From IMG/VR virus record IMGVR_UViG_3300029319_000667, positions 1-20,463 of that record: a stretch of 20,463 nucleotides of DNA; one strand, 5' to 3'. Below are positions 3,847 to 19,158 of this stretch, in pieces. Below the pieces are notes generated by a model. It searched no databases and was not told where the DNA came from. It saw only the letters and a list, made by a program, of their open reading frames with translations. The position numbers were made by a program, and so were the translations under genes. The first letter of the stretch is position 1. The number at the start of each line of letters is the position of its first letter. The stretch comes from a virus.

Positions 3847-4083
3847 ATGTACAACGCAGACCCAGATTACACACTTGGCGGTGAATTAATCACAGATACA
3901 GCCGCACATACAGGTAGATTTAAAAGTATTTTTTTTAAAGAAGATACACAGATCAACACGGCTTCGCATAATTATTCAGGAAATTCAATTGATTCTGAAA
4001 CTTTTCTTGCGGGTCAAACTATTTATGGATTGTTCACAAGTATCACTTTATCAAGTGGCGCTTGCATAGCTTATAAAATCTGA
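3847..4083 (+). CDS. 78-aa small virion-cluster protein
   Basis: 78 residues, starting MYNADPDYTLGGELITDTAA and closing with FLAGQTIYGLFTSITLSSGACIAYKI. The final block ('tf.AG..iyG.ft.itLsSGk.iaYk') is familiar from small phage proteins beside head or neck genes, where it forms a compact beta barrel or sandwich; the function has no name that I know. The gene has a strong Shine-Dalgarno (3835-3840), and its stop shares a base with the next ATG (TGATG 4081-4085). From the context, between the adaptor and the head-closure gene, it could be a decoration, head-spike or neck component. I cannot choose among these from sequence. Confidence 0.7.
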   Translation: MYNADPDYTLGGELITDTAAHTGRFKSIFFKEDTQINTASHNYSGNSIDSETFLAGQTIYGLFTSITLSSGACIAYKI

Positions 4084-5485: not shown

Positions 5486-5905
5486 ATGGCTGCTGTTAAA
5501 GGTGATGTCGGTAAAATTATGTTTCACAATGCGGCTGGTACTGAAGCCGATATTGCAGGAACAAGATCTTGGTCTTTATCAATCACTAAAGACACAATGG
5601 AAACAACTGTTCAAAATGACACATCAAAAACTTTTGTTGGTGGTTTAATTTCTGGTGAAGGTTCAGCAGAACTTATTTATGACCCTTCTGGAAACTCAGA
5701 TTATCAATCATTTATTGATGATGTCTTAGTAACTGGCGATGCCGCAGACGCATTGTTTGAATTATTTCCTGATGGCAGTACAAGTGCTAAAAAAATTAGT
5801 TTTTCAGGTATTATTACAGGCGCAGAATATGGTGCAACTTTAGGTGAACTTGAATTAATAAATGTAACCTTTATAACAAGTGGTGCAATTACCAGCGCTA
5901 TCTGA
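5486..5905 (+). CDS. Major tail tube protein
   Basis: 139 residues, an all-beta protein: MAAVKGDVGKIMFHNAAGTE, SWSLSITKDTMETTVQND, FVGGLISGEGSAELIYDPSG, a helix (YQSFIDDVLVTGDAADALFE), then KKISFSGIITGAEYGATLGE and LELINVTFITSGAITSAI. The 'tR.W.l..t.d.iett...d...' and 'G..sG.g.ael.yD' elements plus the late 'i.G.i...e......geli...v.F...G.i' strands are typical of siphophage tube proteins of the lambda gpV / HK97 gp10-neighbour class. It stacks in rings around the tape measure to form the tail shaft. The order, tube gene then chaperone genes then tape measure, is the conserved siphophage order. Confidence 0.9.
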   Translation: MAAVKGDVGKIMFHNAAGTEADIAGTRSWSLSITKDTMETTVQNDTSKTFVGGLISGEGSAELIYDPSGNSDYQSFIDDVLVTGDAADALFELFPDGSTSAKKISFSGIITGAEYGATLGELELINVTFITSGAITSAI

Positions 5906-5937: not shown

Positions 5938-6288
5938 ATGGCAAACAAAAGAACGATTGACCTGTTAACTGAATCTTACAAAGATCAGATGACAGCTAGA
6001 AGAAAATACGAATTTAAAAATAAAAATGGAGAAAAAATTGTTGATTTATACTTTAAGCCTTTAACTAGGGATGATCGTGTTCGCGCTCAATCAGCCGCAA
6101 ACACAGACGATGCTTTGACAATATCAACATATCTCCTTTGTAAAAATGCTGAATTACAAGATGGATCAAAGGCATTTGCACCCGCAGATGCGCCGAACCT
6201 ACAAAGAGAACTTCCAGAAAATGTTTTGAACGAAATTGAATTATTTATGTTTAATATTGATTTAAATCTTGATACAGCAAAAAAATAA
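5938..6288 (+). CDS. Tail assembly chaperone G
   Basis: 116 residues: MANKRTIDLLTESYKDQMTA, then ARRKYEFKNKNGEKIVDLYF-type beta strands with KPLTRDDRVRAQSAANTDDA and a C-terminal helical part (LPENVLNEIELFMFNIDLNL) ending DTAKK. Location between the tube and tape-measure genes, size and the 'f.pl...dr.ra......d......l...ae..dG...f' layout fit the G protein of the lambda-type G/GT pair. G and GT coat the tape measure and recruit tube subunits, and are absent from the finished tail. The last sense codons, GCA AAA AAA, are a slippery sequence that allows a -1 shift into the frame downstream (separate entries). No ribosome-binding site is visible; a hairpin precedes the start. Confidence 0.85.
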   Translation: MANKRTIDLLTESYKDQMTARRKYEFKNKNGEKIVDLYFKPLTRDDRVRAQSAANTDDALTISTYLLCKNAELQDGSKAFAPADAPNLQRELPENVLNEIELFMFNIDLNLDTAKK

Positions 6289-6467
6289 TATCGCGAGATA
6301 ATTGGATAAATTTTGAATTTTTTCTCGCAACAGAATTAGGCAAAACAATTCAGGAATTACGTTCTTTGATAACAGAAGAAGAACTGATATATTGGGCTGC
6401 CTATTATGAAGTTAAGAATGAAAGAGAAAAAAGAGAATTAAATCGCCAAAGAGCAAATAAAAGGTAA
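5938..6467 (+). CDS. Tail assembly chaperone GT, -1 frameshift product
   Basis: G is extended by a -1 shift at the A-run 6279-6285. Reading from base 6285 gives ATA ATA TCG CGA GAT AAT TGG ..., an open frame without its own start that stops at TAA 6465-6467. It adds 60 residues to G's 116, for 176 in total. The added part, INFEFFLATELGKTIQELRS, LITEEELIYWAAYYEVKNER and a basic end, has the 'G.t..eLr..lt..El..W.ayy' signature of phage tail protein T domains. In lambda the T part binds the tube protein while the G part binds the tape measure. The open T-like frame, the in-register heptamer and the position before the tape measure support programmed frameshifting. Efficiency cannot be judged. 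Confidence 0.85.
6279..6285 (+). other. -1 ribosomal frameshift site (A AAA AAA)
   Basis: Seven A in register as X XXY YYZ relative to the G frame (gcA AAA AAA), directly before the G stop codon TAA. Three bases after it lies TATC-GCGA-GATA (6289-6300), a four-base-pair stem with a GNRA tetraloop, which may act as a stimulator, though the spacer is shorter than usual. A stop codon in the next codon also favours pausing. Confidence 0.75.
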
Positions 6468-6493: not shown

Positions 6494-8278
6494 GTGGCAC
6501 AGGCTAATGTAAAACTTACAGTTGATAGTAGTCAGGCCACTAGAGCGTTAAAAGGCGTTCAAACACAGACACAGAAATTAAATAATGGTGTTAATAGATT
6601 AAAAACAGCAGTTGCGGGCATTGGTTTAACAGTTTTAGCAAGACAAGCAGTTCAAACGTCAGCTAATTTTGCAAAGTTAAATGTCAGATTAGGACTATTG
6701 ACAAAGGCTTCAGGAACTTTCGCAAGATCGCAAGAAATTGCGGCAGAAGCACAAAAATCATTTGGATTAAGTGCAACAGAAGCGCTTGAGGGTATTACAG
6801 ATATAACAGCAAGATTACAGCCTTTAGGTGTTGGCGTTGAAGATATAAGAACAACATTTATCGGATTTAATACAGCGGCAAAACTGGCGGGAGCTTCAGC
6901 AATGGAAAGTTCAAACGCTTTCAGGCAATTAGCACAGGCTTTGGGTTCTGGTCGTTTACAAGGCGATGAATTTAGATCAATTGCGGAACAAGTTCCGACT
7001 CTTTTAGCACCAATAGCAAAAGAACTTAACACAACAGTTGGAGGGTTAAAGAAATTTGCTTCTGAAGGTAAATTAACAAGTGATGTTGTTATAAGAGCAT
7101 TAAAAAAAGTAGAAGTTGATGGCGCGGCTTCGCTCAAAGCATTACTAGAAAATGATCCAACGCAAGTTTTTAAAGATTTAGGAAATGAAGCTGAAAATTT
7201 ATCAAGAGCATTTGGTGACTTATTAACTCCTGTTGTTTTACCTGTAATTAGAGCATTTACAGATTTAACTAAGGCAGTAACAGAATTTTTAAATTCACCA
7301 TTAGGAACTACAGCAGCAATATTCGCAGCAATCGCCGTTGCAGCAAAAGGTGTTGCAGTAGGATTACCATTAGTAGCATTAGGGTTGAAGAAAGTTGCTT
7401 TAGCTGGTGCATCAGCTACTGTTGCTTTTAATGGAATACCGTTTGTTGCTGTTGCAACAGGTATTGGGGCAATAGTAACTCAATTAATAAAACAAAGAAA
7501 AGAACAAAATAAAGTTACTGAAGCTATAAAAAAAGGTGAACTTGCACAACTAAGAGCTATAGAGTCTGATCTAAGCGTAAAAATGGCAAAAGAATTTGCA
7601 ATAATTAATCAATCAAATGATAAAAGGTCAATAGCAGCAGCAGAAAGAAGACTTGCTTTATTGCGTGAACAGTTTAAACCTATTAGAGACAGAATAAATG
7701 AAGTAATAAAAGAAAATGTAGCAATCAAAGAAAGTAATAAAAAATTAGAAGAAAAAGAAGAATTATTAAAAAGAAATGCACAGGCAGCACAAAAACTTAA
7801 AGAAAAATTTGATGAGATAGGACAATCTGTTGAACAGAATTTAGTTCAAAATTTAACTGATGCTGTAATGGGCGCACAGACTCTTGGACAGGCTTTATCT
7901 AATGTTTTAAGAGGATTACAAAGGCAGTTAATAGAAATGGCAGTACAAAATGCTGTAGGTGGTATTGGTGGAGTAGTAAGTAATTTTTTAGGTAGTGTAT
8001 TTAATCCAGCACCGAAAGCAATGGGTGGGCCTGTATCTGCTGGTGGCTCTTTTTTAGTAGGTGAAAAAGGCCCAGAATTGTTTGTTCCCTCAAAAAGCGG
8101 TACTATAATCCCTAATCATGCTCTTAGTGGTACAACTAACGTGGTGGTCAATGTAGACGCTTCTGGGTCGTCTGTACAAGGTGATGATCAATCTGCTGCA
8201 CGATTAGGTGAAGCTATAGCATCAGCAGTGCAGGCTGAAATTGTTAATCAAAAAATGGCGGGAGGTTTATTAAGTTAA
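6494..8278 (+). CDS. Tape measure protein
   Basis: 594 residues, the longest gene of the tail-shaft block, starting at GTG 6494. The N-terminal part is helical with QATRALKGVQTQTQKLNNGV. Residues about 70-210 form the tape-measure domain with TEALEGITDITARLQPLGVG, AGASAMESSNAFRQLAQALG and SGRLQGDEFRSIAEQVPTLL. Residues about 272-335 hold hydrophobic segments (TTAAIFAAIAVAAKGVAVGL; FVAVATGIGAIVTQLI). A Lys/Glu-rich coiled coil follows (about 335-440), then a Gly-rich end with SFLVGEKGPELFVPSKSGTI, the usual lambda gpH-type C-terminal motif. It sets tail length: at roughly 0.15 nm per residue the tail would be near 90 nm (rule-of-thumb estimate). It probably enters the host envelope during DNA delivery. 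The stop overlaps the next start by one base. Confidence 0.93.
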   Translation: MAQANVKLTVDSSQATRALKGVQTQTQKLNNGVNRLKTAVAGIGLTVLARQAVQTSANFAKLNVRLGLLTKASGTFARSQEIAAEAQKSFGLSATEALEGITDITARLQPLGVGVEDIRTTFIGFNTAAKLAGASAMESSNAFRQLAQALGSGRLQGDEFRSIAEQVPTLLAPIAKELNTTVGGLKKFASEGKLTSDVVIRALKKVEVDGAASLKALLENDPTQVFKDLGNEAENLSRAFGDLLTPVVLPVIRAFTDLTKAVTEFLNSPLGTTAAIFAAIAVAAKGVAVGLPLVALGLKKVALAGASATVAFNGIPFVAVATGIGAIVTQLIKQRKEQNKVTEAIKKGELAQLRAIESDLSVKMAKEFAIINQSNDKRSIAAAERRLALLREQFKPIRDRINEVIKENVAIKESNKKLEEKEELLKRNAQAAQKLKEKFDEIGQSVEQNLVQNLTDAVMGAQTLGQALSNVLRGLQRQLIEMAVQNAVGGIGGVVSNFLGSVFNPAPKAMGGPVSAGGSFLVGEKGPELFVPSKSGTIIPNHALSGTTNVVVNVDASGSSVQGDDQSAARLGEAIASAVQAEIVNQKMAGGLLS

Positions 8279-14761: not shown

Positions 14762-16018
14762 ATGGCCACACACGATTATAATCTAGCCAATCAATCAGGA
14801 GCCAGTTTTAGATCAGATTTAAATAATGCTTTAGCTGCAATCCTATCTAATAACAGTAGTGCTTCAAGTCCTTCAACAACTGTGGCGTATATGTTTTGGG
14901 CTGATACTAACTCAAACACATTAAAAATACGTAATAGTTCAAATAACGCATGGATAGAATTATTACAGCTTGACGGAACTTTAACTCTTGAAGATGGTTC
15001 TGGCACCAATCCCGCTTTAGCTTTTCGTAATGATCTAAATACAGGAATTTTCTCAGGTGGTGCTGATAAACTTAATTTTGCTACAGGTGGAACAGAACGT
15101 ATAGAAATTGGAACTACTGCTATTGTTGTTAATGAAAGTGGTGCGGATATAGATTTTAGAATTGAAGGCGATACTGAACAAAATCTATTTTTTGTTAATG
15201 GTGAAACAGATAGAATTGGAATTGGAACCGCTGCGCCTCTTGGTAATCTTGAAATAAAGGGTAATAATCCAAATATAAGATTTAATGATTCTGATAGTAA
15301 TAATATTGGTGAAATAACTCTTGATGATACATCACTACGTATTGAATGTGATACAACTAACTCCCCTAATGGAAGTGTAGGTAGCAGCACAATAAAGTTT
15401 ATGATTGATACTACAACCATAGGGATTCTTGATAGCACGGGTGGTTTAGGTCTTGGAACGACAAATTTAGCTAAGGGTCATCTTTCAATGCTGTCAAATA
15501 ATCCAAATATAAGGTTTGATGATAGCAACACTGATAATAATGCCGAAATAACTCTTGATGATAATAGTTTGCGAATCGAGGTTGACGAAGATGATGCTTC
15601 ATCAATAACTAGCCCTTCAATCAAATTTAGAGTTAAAGCAAGTCAAAAAGCCGTTATTGATGTAAATGGCAATTTAGGTGTTGCTAAAGTATCACCTGCT
15701 GAAAAAATTGATGTAGTGGGTAATATAGCAGCTACTGGAACAATAACTGCTGGTTCAGATATAACTTTTAAAAAAGATATAGAACCTTTAAAAAATGTTT
15801 TAAATAAAGTAACTCAATTACTTGGTGTTAATTTTACATATAAAGACAATAATCAAAAATCTATGGGGTTATTAGCTCAAGATGTAGAAAAAATTTTTCC
15901 AGAATTAATTAGTGGAGAGGAAGGAGAAAAAAAATTAAATTATAATGGATTAACTGGTGCAATAGTAGAAGCAATTAAAGAATTATCAGCAAAAGTTGAT
16001 GCTCTTGAAACTTCTTAG
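14762..16018 (+). CDS. Tail fibre A with S74 self-cleaving chaperone domain
   Basis: 418 residues. N-terminal adaptor MATHDYNLANQSGASFRSDL then NNALAAILSNNSSA and YMFWADTNSNTLKIRNSSNN, a common attachment domain of marine phage fibres. The shaft is made of beta repeats; one unit containing NNPNIRF-D-S...EITLDD-SLRIE appears twice, 78 residues apart. The last 87 residues form an intramolecular chaperone (peptidase S74) domain: GSDITFKKDIEPLKNVLNKV, then SMGLLAQDVEKIFPELISG and the coiled-coil end IVEAIKELSAKVDALETS. Autocleavage is predicted just before Ser332 (Ser332-Asp333, with Lys337 as partner). The chaperone trimerises the fibre and is then released (known for endosialidase-type fibres). 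It probably attaches to J or its distal partner. Confidence 0.9.
   Translation: MATHDYNLANQSGASFRSDLNNALAAILSNNSSASSPSTTVAYMFWADTNSNTLKIRNSSNNAWIELLQLDGTLTLEDGSGTNPALAFRNDLNTGIFSGGADKLNFATGGTERIEIGTTAIVVNESGADIDFRIEGDTEQNLFFVNGETDRIGIGTAAPLGNLEIKGNNPNIRFNDSDSNNIGEITLDDTSLRIECDTTNSPNGSVGSSTIKFMIDTTTIGILDSTGGLGLGTTNLAKGHLSMLSNNPNIRFDDSNTDNNAEITLDDNSLRIEVDEDDASSITSPSIKFRVKASQKAVIDVNGNLGVAKVSPAEKIDVVGNIAATGTITAGSDITFKKDIEPLKNVLNKVTQLLGVNFTYKDNNQKSMGLLAQDVEKIFPELISGEEGEKKLNYNGLTGAIVEAIKELSAKVDALETS
15263..15513 (+). repeat. Internal direct repeat in fibre A
   Basis: AATAATCCAAATATAAG at 15263-15279 recurs exactly at 15497-15513, 234 bases (78 codons) later. Similar sequence follows in both copies, including GAAATAACTCTTGATGAT. 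The repeat lies in the shaft region and encodes the NNPNIRF...EITLDD unit. Confidence 0.8.
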
Positions 16019-16638: not shown

Positions 16639-19158
16639 ATGGCTGATAGAAAAATTACAGCACTTACTGAGTTAACTGCGCCTGTAGCTGCTGATGTTTT
16701 TCCTGTAGTTGATGTAAGTGAATCAGCAAATGCTAGTAAAAATAAAAAAATACAACTTACAACAGTTTTAAAAAATATTCCAGATGGAAATGTATCAGCA
16801 CCAAGTGTAGGTTTTACAAGTGATTCTGGTCTTACAGGTTTTTTTAGAGTTGCAAGTAACGAAATAGGAGTATCAGCTAACCAAACATTAATTGGATCAT
16901 TTTCAACAACAGGTTTTCAGTTAGGGTCAGGAACCCCTGCTGCACAGTTGCATTTGTTCAGTACAGATACAACCGATCAAGTAATCATAGAAAATAGCGA
17001 TACTGGTGCTGATAATGCACCTGATCTTGTCTTATTTAGGAACTCAGCTTCACCAGCAGCCGATGATAATTTAGGAAATCTTGTTTATAGAGGTGAAGAT
17101 TCTGCTGGCAATGCTCACGATTACGCAAGTGTGGTCGCATCTATAGAAGATACAACAAATGGTTCTGAAGACGGCATATTAGATATTATGTCTAGTGCTG
17201 CTGGTACTTTAGCTTCAAGGATCAGGCTTAAAAATAATTTGGTTGGTATTCATGAATCTGACCCTGCATTTCCACTGCATTTAACAACAACTGCCGCAGG
17301 GCAAGCTTTTCAGATTGAATGTAATGCTAATGATGCTGCCAGTGGTGCGGATCTTATGCTGTATCACAGAAGGGGTGCTAGTGGTGCTGGTCAAGATAAT
17401 GATGTCTTATCAACAATTATTTATAAGGGTAAAAATGATGCTGGAACACCAGAAGAGGTAAATTATGCAGCGATAGAATCTGTAATTGTAGATGCCAGTG
17501 ATGCAACAGAGGATGGCAAGTTAAATTTACAAGTCATGACGGCTGGTACATTAACAACGAAGGTAGCTATTGATGCTAGTGGCATAGATGTAACAGGAAC
17601 AATAACTGATGATGGTGCGGTGCATGATGGTGATGTTACATTTACTGGTGCAAGTGCAAATATTGTATTCGATAAATCCGATAATGCTTTGGAGTTTGCC
17701 GATAACGCAAAGGCAACTTTTGGTGCGGATTCGGATTTACAAATATTTCATGATGGATCTCACAGCGTCATAAAAGATGATGGAACTGGAGTATTAAAAT
17801 TATTAGGATCAAGCACATTTATAAAAAATAATACTGATGATAAAATGTCCGCTAATTTTGTACCTACATCAGCTTGTAATTTTTTCTTTAATGGTTCGAA
17901 AAAATTGGAAACTGCCTCTTATGGAATTTTAGCTACTGGTACAATAGTTACCACTACAGGTAATGTAAGATGTCAATCAGATTCACATAAAATTACTGCT
18001 GGTGCTGGAAATGACCTAACCGCATTTCATGATGGGACGGATTCATTCATTGAGAATACAAATGGTAATTTACACATAAGACCAAAATCTAGCGAAGAGG
18101 GTATAAAGCTTATACCTGATGGGAGTGTAGAAATCTACCACGATAATGTAAAAAAATGCTCAACATCAGCCGATGGATTAGATTTCCCAGATAACAGCAA
18201 GTTGCAATTAGGAGATTCGCAAGATGCTTTAATTTATCATTCTGGAAGCTCATTAAATATTGATAACAATACAGGGAATATTTTTTATGACACTGTGGGT
18301 ACTCACTATTTTAGGGTGGGTGGTGGTAATGAAACAGCTATTCAAGCAGCAGCCAACGGAAGTGTTGATCTCTACTTCGATAATGTTTTAAAGGCACAAA
18401 CATCAAGTGATGGATTTGATATACCAGCAGATTCCGCTAAATTAAAAATTGGTCAATCGGGGGATCTAACCTTTTTTCATGACGGTTCAAATTCTCATAT
18501 TAAAAATAATACTGGCGATCTAGTATTTAGTGACACTAATCATGTCTATATTAGAGGCTATACAAGTGATAAATCAGTTGGTTTATTTTTTAATGGATCG
18601 CAAAAAGTAGTAACATCAAGTGATGGACTAGATTTCCCAGATAACAGCAAGTTGCAATTAGGAGATTCGCAAGATTTACAGATCTTCCATGATTCTGGAA
18701 ACAGCGTCATAAAAGATAATGGAACTGGACAATTAAAGATATTAGGATCAACTGTATCTATTAAAAATGGTAGCGATAATAAAACGATGGCTAGTTTTTT
18801 GCCTAATGGTGCTTCTTTTTTAAATTTTAATGGCGTTAATAAATTAGAGACAACCAGTTCGGGAGTGACGGTGACGGGAACAGTTACAGAAACATCTGAT
18901 ATTGCATTTAAATCTGAAATCAAACCTATTACAAACACACTAGATAAACTACAACAAATCACAGGTTATAAATATAAATTAGACAATGCTTCAATAGATT
19001 CAATGGGAGTTATAGCACAAGATGTAGAAAAAGTATTTCCTGAGCTTGTTCATGGTGATGAAGGTAGTAAGACTTTACAATATAGTGGTCTAATTGGAGT
19101 TTTAGTAGAAGCTGTAAAAGATTTATCAGCTAAAGTAAAAGCTTTAGAGTCTAGTTAG
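16639..19158 (+). CDS. Large tail fibre B with S74 self-cleaving chaperone domain
   Basis: 839 residues. The N-terminal adaptor MADRKITALTELTAPVAADV, FPVVDVSESANASKNKKIQL is a form common in cyanophage structural proteins and different from fibre A. The shaft is a long series of beta repeats of the 'sDLqIFHDGSnS-IKnn-tG-L-i' type (near residues 366, 440, 525, 610, 680) alternating with 'LDFPDNSKLQLGDSQD'. The last 87 residues are an S74 domain: TSDIAFKSEIKPITNTLDKL, SMGVIAQDVEKVFPELVHG and LVEAVKDLSAKVKALESS. Ser753-Asp754 is the predicted cleavage site, with Lys758 as partner. By ungapped alignment the domain matches 47 of 87 residues with that of fibre A. It probably forms a trimeric receptor-binding fibre. 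Start follows the coiled-coil gene with no gap. Confidence 0.9.
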   Translation: MADRKITALTELTAPVAADVFPVVDVSESANASKNKKIQLTTVLKNIPDGNVSAPSVGFTSDSGLTGFFRVASNEIGVSANQTLIGSFSTTGFQLGSGTPAAQLHLFSTDTTDQVIIENSDTGADNAPDLVLFRNSASPAADDNLGNLVYRGEDSAGNAHDYASVVASIEDTTNGSEDGILDIMSSAAGTLASRIRLKNNLVGIHESDPAFPLHLTTTAAGQAFQIECNANDAASGADLMLYHRRGASGAGQDNDVLSTIIYKGKNDAGTPEEVNYAAIESVIVDASDATEDGKLNLQVMTAGTLTTKVAIDASGIDVTGTITDDGAVHDGDVTFTGASANIVFDKSDNALEFADNAKATFGADSDLQIFHDGSHSVIKDDGTGVLKLLGSSTFIKNNTDDKMSANFVPTSACNFFFNGSKKLETASYGILATGTIVTTTGNVRCQSDSHKITAGAGNDLTAFHDGTDSFIENTNGNLHIRPKSSEEGIKLIPDGSVEIYHDNVKKCSTSADGLDFPDNSKLQLGDSQDALIYHSGSSLNIDNNTGNIFYDTVGTHYFRVGGGNETAIQAAANGSVDLYFDNVLKAQTSSDGFDIPADSAKLKIGQSGDLTFFHDGSNSHIKNNTGDLVFSDTNHVYIRGYTSDKSVGLFFNGSQKVVTSSDGLDFPDNSKLQLGDSQDLQIFHDSGNSVIKDNGTGQLKILGSTVSIKNGSDNKTMASFLPNGASFLNFNGVNKLETTSSGVTVTGTVTETSDIAFKSEIKPITNTLDKLQQITGYKYKLDNASIDSMGVIAQDVEKVFPELVHGDEGSKTLQYSGLIGVLVEAVKDLSAKVKALESS
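18181..18675 (+). repeat. 45-bp perfect direct repeat in fibre B
   Basis: The 45 bases at 18181-18225 (starting GATTTCCCAGATAACAGCAA) recur exactly at 18631-18675, in the same frame and 450 bases (150 codons) apart; extending nine bases upstream adds one mismatch. A second pair, 17762-17790 and 18701-18729 (ACAGCGTCATAAAAGATRAT...), differs at one base in 29. Synonymous positions are conserved, which points to recent duplication or gene conversion. Confidence 0.9.

Follow-up and report, generated by a model that had tools for sequence, protein, structure and literature searches.

A probable G/G-T tail assembly chaperone with a predicted programmed −1 frameshift in a marine siphovirus close to Prochlorococcus and Synechococcus phages

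The stretch of viral DNA analysed here – a linear virus record of the IMG/VR kind, 20463 bases long and referred to as the window – contains a segment of tail genes in the order major tail protein, G, T and tape measure, as judged from the PHROGs and Pfam matches of the neighbouring genes (Table 1). The G open reading frame ends in GCA AAA AAA TAA, and the initial annotation was correct in placing an A-run in the register of G with the stop codon following at once. It was also correct in describing the −1 frame as open for 60 codons (6285–6464); the translation is IISRDNWINFEFFLATELGKTIQELRSLITEEELIYWAAYYEVKNEREKRELNRQRANKR. The nearest upstream stop codon of this T frame is at 6270–6272, 27 nt 5′ of the DNW codon, and any shift from the G frame into T is therefore confined to positions 6273–6288.

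Table 1. Features of the G/T junction and its neighbouring genes in the window
Feature	Coordinates	Strand	Basis
Major tail protein gene, upstream neighbour	5486..5905	+	phrog_10528, E 2.5e-42
G, predicted tail assembly chaperone, 116 aa when translation terminates normally	5938..6288	+	phrog_20784, E 1e-32; AlphaFold2 model compared with 2OB9
Putative slippery heptamer A_AAA_AAA, in G register	6279..6285	+	sequence; in-register heptamer in 137/138 distinct relatives
TAA stop codon of G, immediately 3′ of the heptamer	6286..6288	+	sequence; the stop moves in relatives, the heptamer does not
T, extension of 60 codons and a stop in the −1 frame	6285..6467	+	phrog_337 tail protein, E 5.4e-7
Predicted stimulatory hairpin, two-part	6293..6328	+	−11.2 kcal/mol; synonymous shuffles; covariation
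Tape measure protein gene, GTG start, downstream neighbour	6494..8278	+	Pfam TMP_3, E 2.7e-34; phrog_3336, E 2.7e-35

The product of the T frame matches, in addition to phrog_337, two further families, phrog_26456 (unknown function; E 6.9e-4) and phrog_14766 (E 9.1e-4), and all nine members of our alignment A2 match the same three. As yardsticks, the T protein of phage lambda matches phrog_337 at E 4.7e-7, and that of HK97 has E values of 2.5e-57 to phrog_14766 and 8.1e-38 to phrog_337. The T-domain signature noticed in the initial annotation, for which a search against T-family profiles had been proposed as a check, thus corresponds to a family, phrog_337, that is common to the T proteins of the window, lambda and HK97. 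Comparison of T with Pfam gave two single weak matches among the nine members, and comparison with PDB sequences gave nothing credible. These profile matches group the window T with the T proteins of lambda and HK97.

The G protein has a single significant match, to phrog_20784, a family of unknown function. Among the named chaperone families of PHROGs, Pfam and NCBIfam, none is significantly similar to G in sequence, and a search of PDB sequences with a G profile returned nothing credible. An AlphaFold2 model of G (23-row alignment, pLDDT 81.5, pTM 0.66) was compared by Foldseek with 350,542 PDB chains; the top match is the HK97 tail assembly chaperone 2OB9, with E 1.2e-3 and probability 1.00, and no PDB match is at E 0.001 or better. 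Aligned with 2OB9, the model has a Z of 8.2 – a little over what the tool describes as common – with an rmsd of 3.7 over 98 residues, and the next structures by Z are 3FGX (7.0) and 3KLU (YqbN; 6.1). The matches of the model in a viral library include several named tail assembly chaperones, from E 1.2e-3. On this predicted structure, G has the fold of the HK97 tail assembly chaperone.

The heptamer and the open −1 frame have to be read against what occurs elsewhere in the window, which is A-rich. In-register A_AAA_AAA is not rare, with 14 occurrences in the 28 listed ORFs (6434 codons), and there are seven in-register X_XXY_YYZ heptamers no more than 30 nt from a stop codon, of which that in G is the sole A_AAA_AAA. 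Dinucleotide shuffling of the T stretch gave 60 open codons in 29 of 5000 cases, and 15 of the 28 ORFs in the window have at least 30 open −1 codons past their stop; in 14 of these 15 the −1 frame is simply that of the next listed ORF, G being the sole exception. The combination of frame and heptamer is by itself suggestive, and it is homology and conservation that decide whether this is a G/GT arrangement.

Relatives were collected in three IMG/VR scans, from which the best 80 of 305, 532 and 568 confirmed loci, respectively, were taken. Together with the window and phages MED4-117, MED4-184 and S-H1 these amount to 241 loci, with many contigs represented more than once; seven are unusable (apparently truncated near the site) and the remainder comprise 138 distinct sequences of 85 nt. 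An in-register heptamer is present in 137 of the 138 – A_AAA_AAA in 77 and A_AAA_AAC in 60 – and the only sequence with neither is that of MED4-117 and MED4-184, a sister lineage. The position of the G stop relative to the DNW codon of T varies among the 101 haplotypes of the first set (−11, −8 or +10 nt), whereas the heptamer is at −18 in 100 of them, three of which have a second heptamer farther upstream. We also inspected 53 of the 80 loci from one scan individually, mostly more distant ones, and every one has an in-register heptamer (24 A7 and 29 A6C). Synechococcus phage KBS-S-2A, whose G is very divergent, has A_AAA_AAC as well. Of 105 candidate stretches from a scan of genome_contigs with G, one proved to be a locus, and it is in a MAG that carries the label Maricaulis.

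These relatives bear directly on whether a single gene appears split because the A-run was misread or misassembled, a concern raised by the error-prone nature of homopolymers and by the origin of the window as a linear IMG/VR-type record. Since 137 of the 138 distinct sequences, including that of the isolate S-H1, and all 53 of the individually inspected loci are arranged in this way, such an error is already refuted by the sequences of the relatives, and we regard its probability as negligible.

The T frame of the window contains neither ATG nor GTG, and its first start codon under translation table 11 is an ATA at 6285. The initial annotation had described T as having no start codon, which holds for the first 27 codons and, with respect to ATG and GTG, for the whole frame, but not for the TTG at 6366, which is codon 28 of the 60 and lies within the conserved T core. 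Among the 101 haplotypes, 25 (one of these cut by the contig end) have no ATG, GTG or TTG in the T frame at all; counting codons from the heptamer, the first such codon is at codon 23 or later in 72, at codons 6–22 in two, and before codon 6 in two. Where present, the first start ranges from codon 4 to codon 60, the commonest being the codon-28 TTG (30 of the 101). Differences from the window in the T frame, counted over 97 sequences, number 617, 255 and 1331 at codon positions 1, 2 and 3, and this third-position excess indicates that T evolves as a coding frame. One metagenome contig has a shortened T frame, reflecting either a sequencing error or a broken gene.

Independent translation of T, either from an alternative start (the ATA or the TTG) or by re-initiation past the G stop, could draw on the codons just described, and the GenBank record of Synechococcus phage S-H1 does have a separate CDS within T (3884–4027). 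It is nonetheless extremely unlikely, as no start is shared among the haplotypes or conserved ahead of T, initiation at the codon-28 TTG would drop the DNW...ELGKT core, and conservation of the heptamer would have no reason. The S-H1 CDS itself starts at a TTG inside the conserved stretch DNWLFFEFHL, and is likely to be a mis-annotated frameshift product.

Downstream of the heptamer, the initial annotation had proposed a stem with a GNRA loop, UAUC-GCGA-GAUA (6289–6300), three bases past the A-run. This stem can be drawn but is not supported. Alone it folds at −1.0 kcal/mol, all four of its pairs are intact in only 41 of the 138 sequences, and its closing pair has a probability in the window fold printed as 0.0000, compared with 0.997 for the pair G6293-C6328. 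The latter belongs to a larger, two-part hairpin in which a lower stem is predicted to form between GCGAGA (6293–6298) and UCUCGC (6323–6328) and an upper stem between AAUU (6300–6303) and AAUU (6316–6319), with a spacer of 7 nt (6286–6292) between heptamer and hairpin. Relative to dinucleotide shuffles the fold has z values of −2.80 (6279–6330), −2.42 (6286–6345) and −1.61 (6260–6330), being less outstanding in the last and longer stretch, where 15 of 200 shuffles are as low. With shuffles that preserve the T protein and follow the codon usage of the window, the mean z over the 101 haplotypes is −3.79, and 100 of them are below −1 (the exception has −0.27); the window itself has a z of −2.57, an energy that 4 of 200 shuffles reach. 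Among the 138 sequences, 100 have a predicted spacer of 7 nt and 20 one of 8 nt.

The upper stem has all four pairs in 135 of the 138 sequences. Its third pair is formed by the third bases of an Asn (or Ser) codon and a Glu codon, which are C-G or U-A in 129 sequences (AAC-GAG in 80, AAT-GAA in 45 and AGC-GAG in four), G-U wobbles in six (AGT-GAG in five and AAT-GAG in one), and unpaired in three (AGC-GAA, AAC-GAA and CAC-GAA, one each). In the lower stem, all six pairs are found in 105 of the 138, and at least five in each of the 108 sequences outside a GGGG class, whose 30 members have lost the canonical lower-stem pairing. A shifted register would restore five of six pairs in all 30, yet it is not discriminating because 104 of the 108 other sequences satisfy the same criterion via wobble pairs. 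The two arms vary together: among the first 101 haplotypes, a 5′ arm with GGG (Gly, 15 haplotypes) always occurs with a 3′ arm of TTC CTA or TTC CTT, and one with CGA, CGG or AGA (Arg, 85 haplotypes) always with TTT CTC, both versions of the 3′ arm encoding Phe-Leu. S-H1 has CAG with CAT TTG, and two GGGG sequences in the larger set of 138 carry TTC CTC.

On a tree of 97 rows built without the hairpin stretch, all five independent changes in the lower-stem arms are concordant (p 0.0625), as are four to five of six at the Asn/Glu pair of the upper stem (p 0.0625–0.125), with none opposed in either stem; these sign tests miss 0.05 because the independent changes are few. Control pairs (the heptamer with the Asn base, and the 5′ arm with the Asn base) have no such concordance on the tree. 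Mutual information is high between the arms (columns −3/26 and −3/29, which are not partners and mark the class switch) and for the partner columns 5/20, and some pairs outside the helix, such as −11/0, also score high. From these comparisons the pairing of the hairpin is conserved, with synonymous covariation, and the larger two-part hairpin is a better candidate for a stimulator than the GNRA stem.

Both the A-run and the hairpin are pertinent to an origin of the shift in transcription – with RNA polymerase slipping on the A-run and adding an extra A to some mRNAs – rather than in the ribosome. A7 is a homopolymer, A runs longer than seven have been tied to transcriptional realignment (PMC3711429), and polymerase slippage has been named as a possible cause of A7 avoidance (PMC4066793), as far as the available parts of these papers go. 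Against this, the run is six A's followed by C in 60 of the 138 sequences and in all 74 called loci of the S-H1 group (best 80 of 568), the codon register is maintained, and a conserved hairpin downstream is not needed for slippage upstream of it. We consider polymerase slippage very unlikely.

The locus thus very probably encodes a G/G-T tail assembly chaperone with a programmed −1 ribosomal frameshift, in a marine siphovirus near the Prochlorococcus and Synechococcus phages. This supports the G/GT reading of the initial annotation, the relatives neither giving T a start of its own nor losing the A-run or its equivalent. The majority of ribosomes would terminate at the TAA and release G, and some fraction – the presumed shift rate – would slip by −1 on A_AAA_AAA with tRNA-Lys in both the P and A sites reading AAA AAA, probably aided by the hairpin that starts 7 nt downstream. 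Slipped ribosomes would continue in the −1 frame to yield G-T (...KK-IISRDNW...). By analogy with lambda, G would coat the tape measure protein, with recruitment of the major tail protein falling to the T part of G-T.

The slippery heptamer of the lambda G/G-T system is G_GGA_AAG. Lambda and the window share the location between the major tail protein and the tape measure, the order of G and then T, and the phrog_337 match of T, but the window has an all-A heptamer, a stop directly after it and a conserved downstream hairpin, and its G is unlike that of lambda in sequence (phrog_20784 and phrog_42, respectively). HK97 gp13/gp13-14, the record of which notes a −1 frameshift, resembles the window in the chaperone fold modelled for G and in T, the match of the window T to the fusion family phrog_14766 falling in the T part of that family, at 129–162 (HK97 T: 127–224). 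The two differ in that T has 60 codons in the window compared with 98 in the HK97 stretch read, and in that the searches gave no significant sequence match to HK97 for the G part.

A review of the G/G-T device treats its −1, −2 and +1 forms and how it bears on tail length (PMC5009743, in the part available). The all-A slippery site of the window is not the first to be published for a phage tail gene: AAAAAAA was proposed as the tail assembly frameshift site of 13 named Paenibacillus larvae phages (PMC6256562). It is a purely predicted heptamer and falls in the corresponding gene pair; the hosts are different, and the accessible text of that paper does not describe a conserved structure. According to the portions available of the respective papers, AAAAAAC is found in the tail chaperone genes of phiCbK (PMC3556154), Loki (PMC5313236) and possibly Dragolir (PMC6003738), a heptamer that these share with 60 of our 138 sequences, whereas the window itself has A_AAA_AAA. 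As to efficiency, the excerpts available give 10% frameshifting for A_AAA_AAA in one experimental cassette and 7% for a phage tail chaperone cluster (PMC3711429), and describe A_AAA_AAC as a low-efficiency motif and A_AAG as the best tetramer −1 motif in E. coli (PMC4066793). Among the titles and abstract openings listed in literature searches, none reports this frameshift in picocyanobacterial siphophages, which is weak evidence of absence. The window presents a case that is ordinary in kind and unusually well documented. The retention of the site in 137 of 138 sequences and the compensated hairpin pairing allow the gene to be annotated as G/G-T where the MED4-117, MED4-184 and S-H1 records have a hypothetical protein.

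Other groups of the same chaperone family differ in the sequence at the overlap. In the S-H1 group (best 80 of 568 loci), T is in the −1 frame in 74, with one not called and five ambiguous, and all 74 have AAAAAAC. The MED4-184 group was scanned with the MED4-184 G, and among the best 80 of 145 loci T is in −1 in 78 (two not called), with AAAGGAATCY ahead of the TAA in each of the 78. The 59 distinct sequences of this group end G with NNA AAG GAA TCY TAA, in which AAG and GAA are invariant and the base preceding AAG is A in all 59, despite the residue being Ala, Val, Thr or Ile; this suggests a −1 shift on the tetramer A_AAG. For a third group, the scan used the G of AG-345-A17, a single-cell virus whose own T is in the +1 frame; of the best 80 among 506 loci, 71 likewise place T in +1 (the T motif was not found in six, and three were ambiguous). 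Here the overlap is often merely TTR_AAA_AGC_TAA, and a +1 slip on AAA_A is therefore the simplest reading. Within the 27 distinct AG-345-A17 group sequences that have a stop directly after AGC or AGT, GAG GCT AAA GCC is invariant just 5′ of the shift site, and codons farther upstream vary; this stretch could represent a small GGC-UAAA-GCC hairpin or another upstream signal.

The G of AG-345-A17 matches phrog_20784 (E 9.2e-22), and across 42 residues the T proteins of AG-345-A17 and the window share 50% identity; the groups of the window, S-H1, MED4-184 and AG-345-A17 therefore form one family. In synonymous shuffles using each group's own codons, the downstream hairpin is weak to absent in the other groups, the mean z being −1.65 for S-H1 (46 distinct sequences), −1.09 for MED4-184 (28) and −0.28 for AG-345-A17 (48). 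A tree of 50 rows, in which six of the 11 S-H1 rows tried passed the filter, supports MED4-184 and S-H1 each as groups and no branching order among the groups; a topology that unites MED4-184 with AG-345-A17 could not be rejected (p-AU 0.38). On balance we lean towards a history in which the shift signal was exchanged at least twice within the family, among A_AAA_AAA/C (−1, with a covarying hairpin; window and S-H1), A_AAG (−1) and AAA_A (+1), with each signal fixed down to the nucleotides within its group and the G and T proteins still recognisable. If so, the family would offer a natural series for testing how the type of frameshift, and even its direction, can change with the fusion protein retained, and this family-wide swapping of signals is the part that merits specialist attention.

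Elsewhere in the window, 14762–16018 and 16639–19158 are two tail-fibre-like genes with similar C-terminal stretches. These stretches may resemble S74-type intramolecular chaperones.
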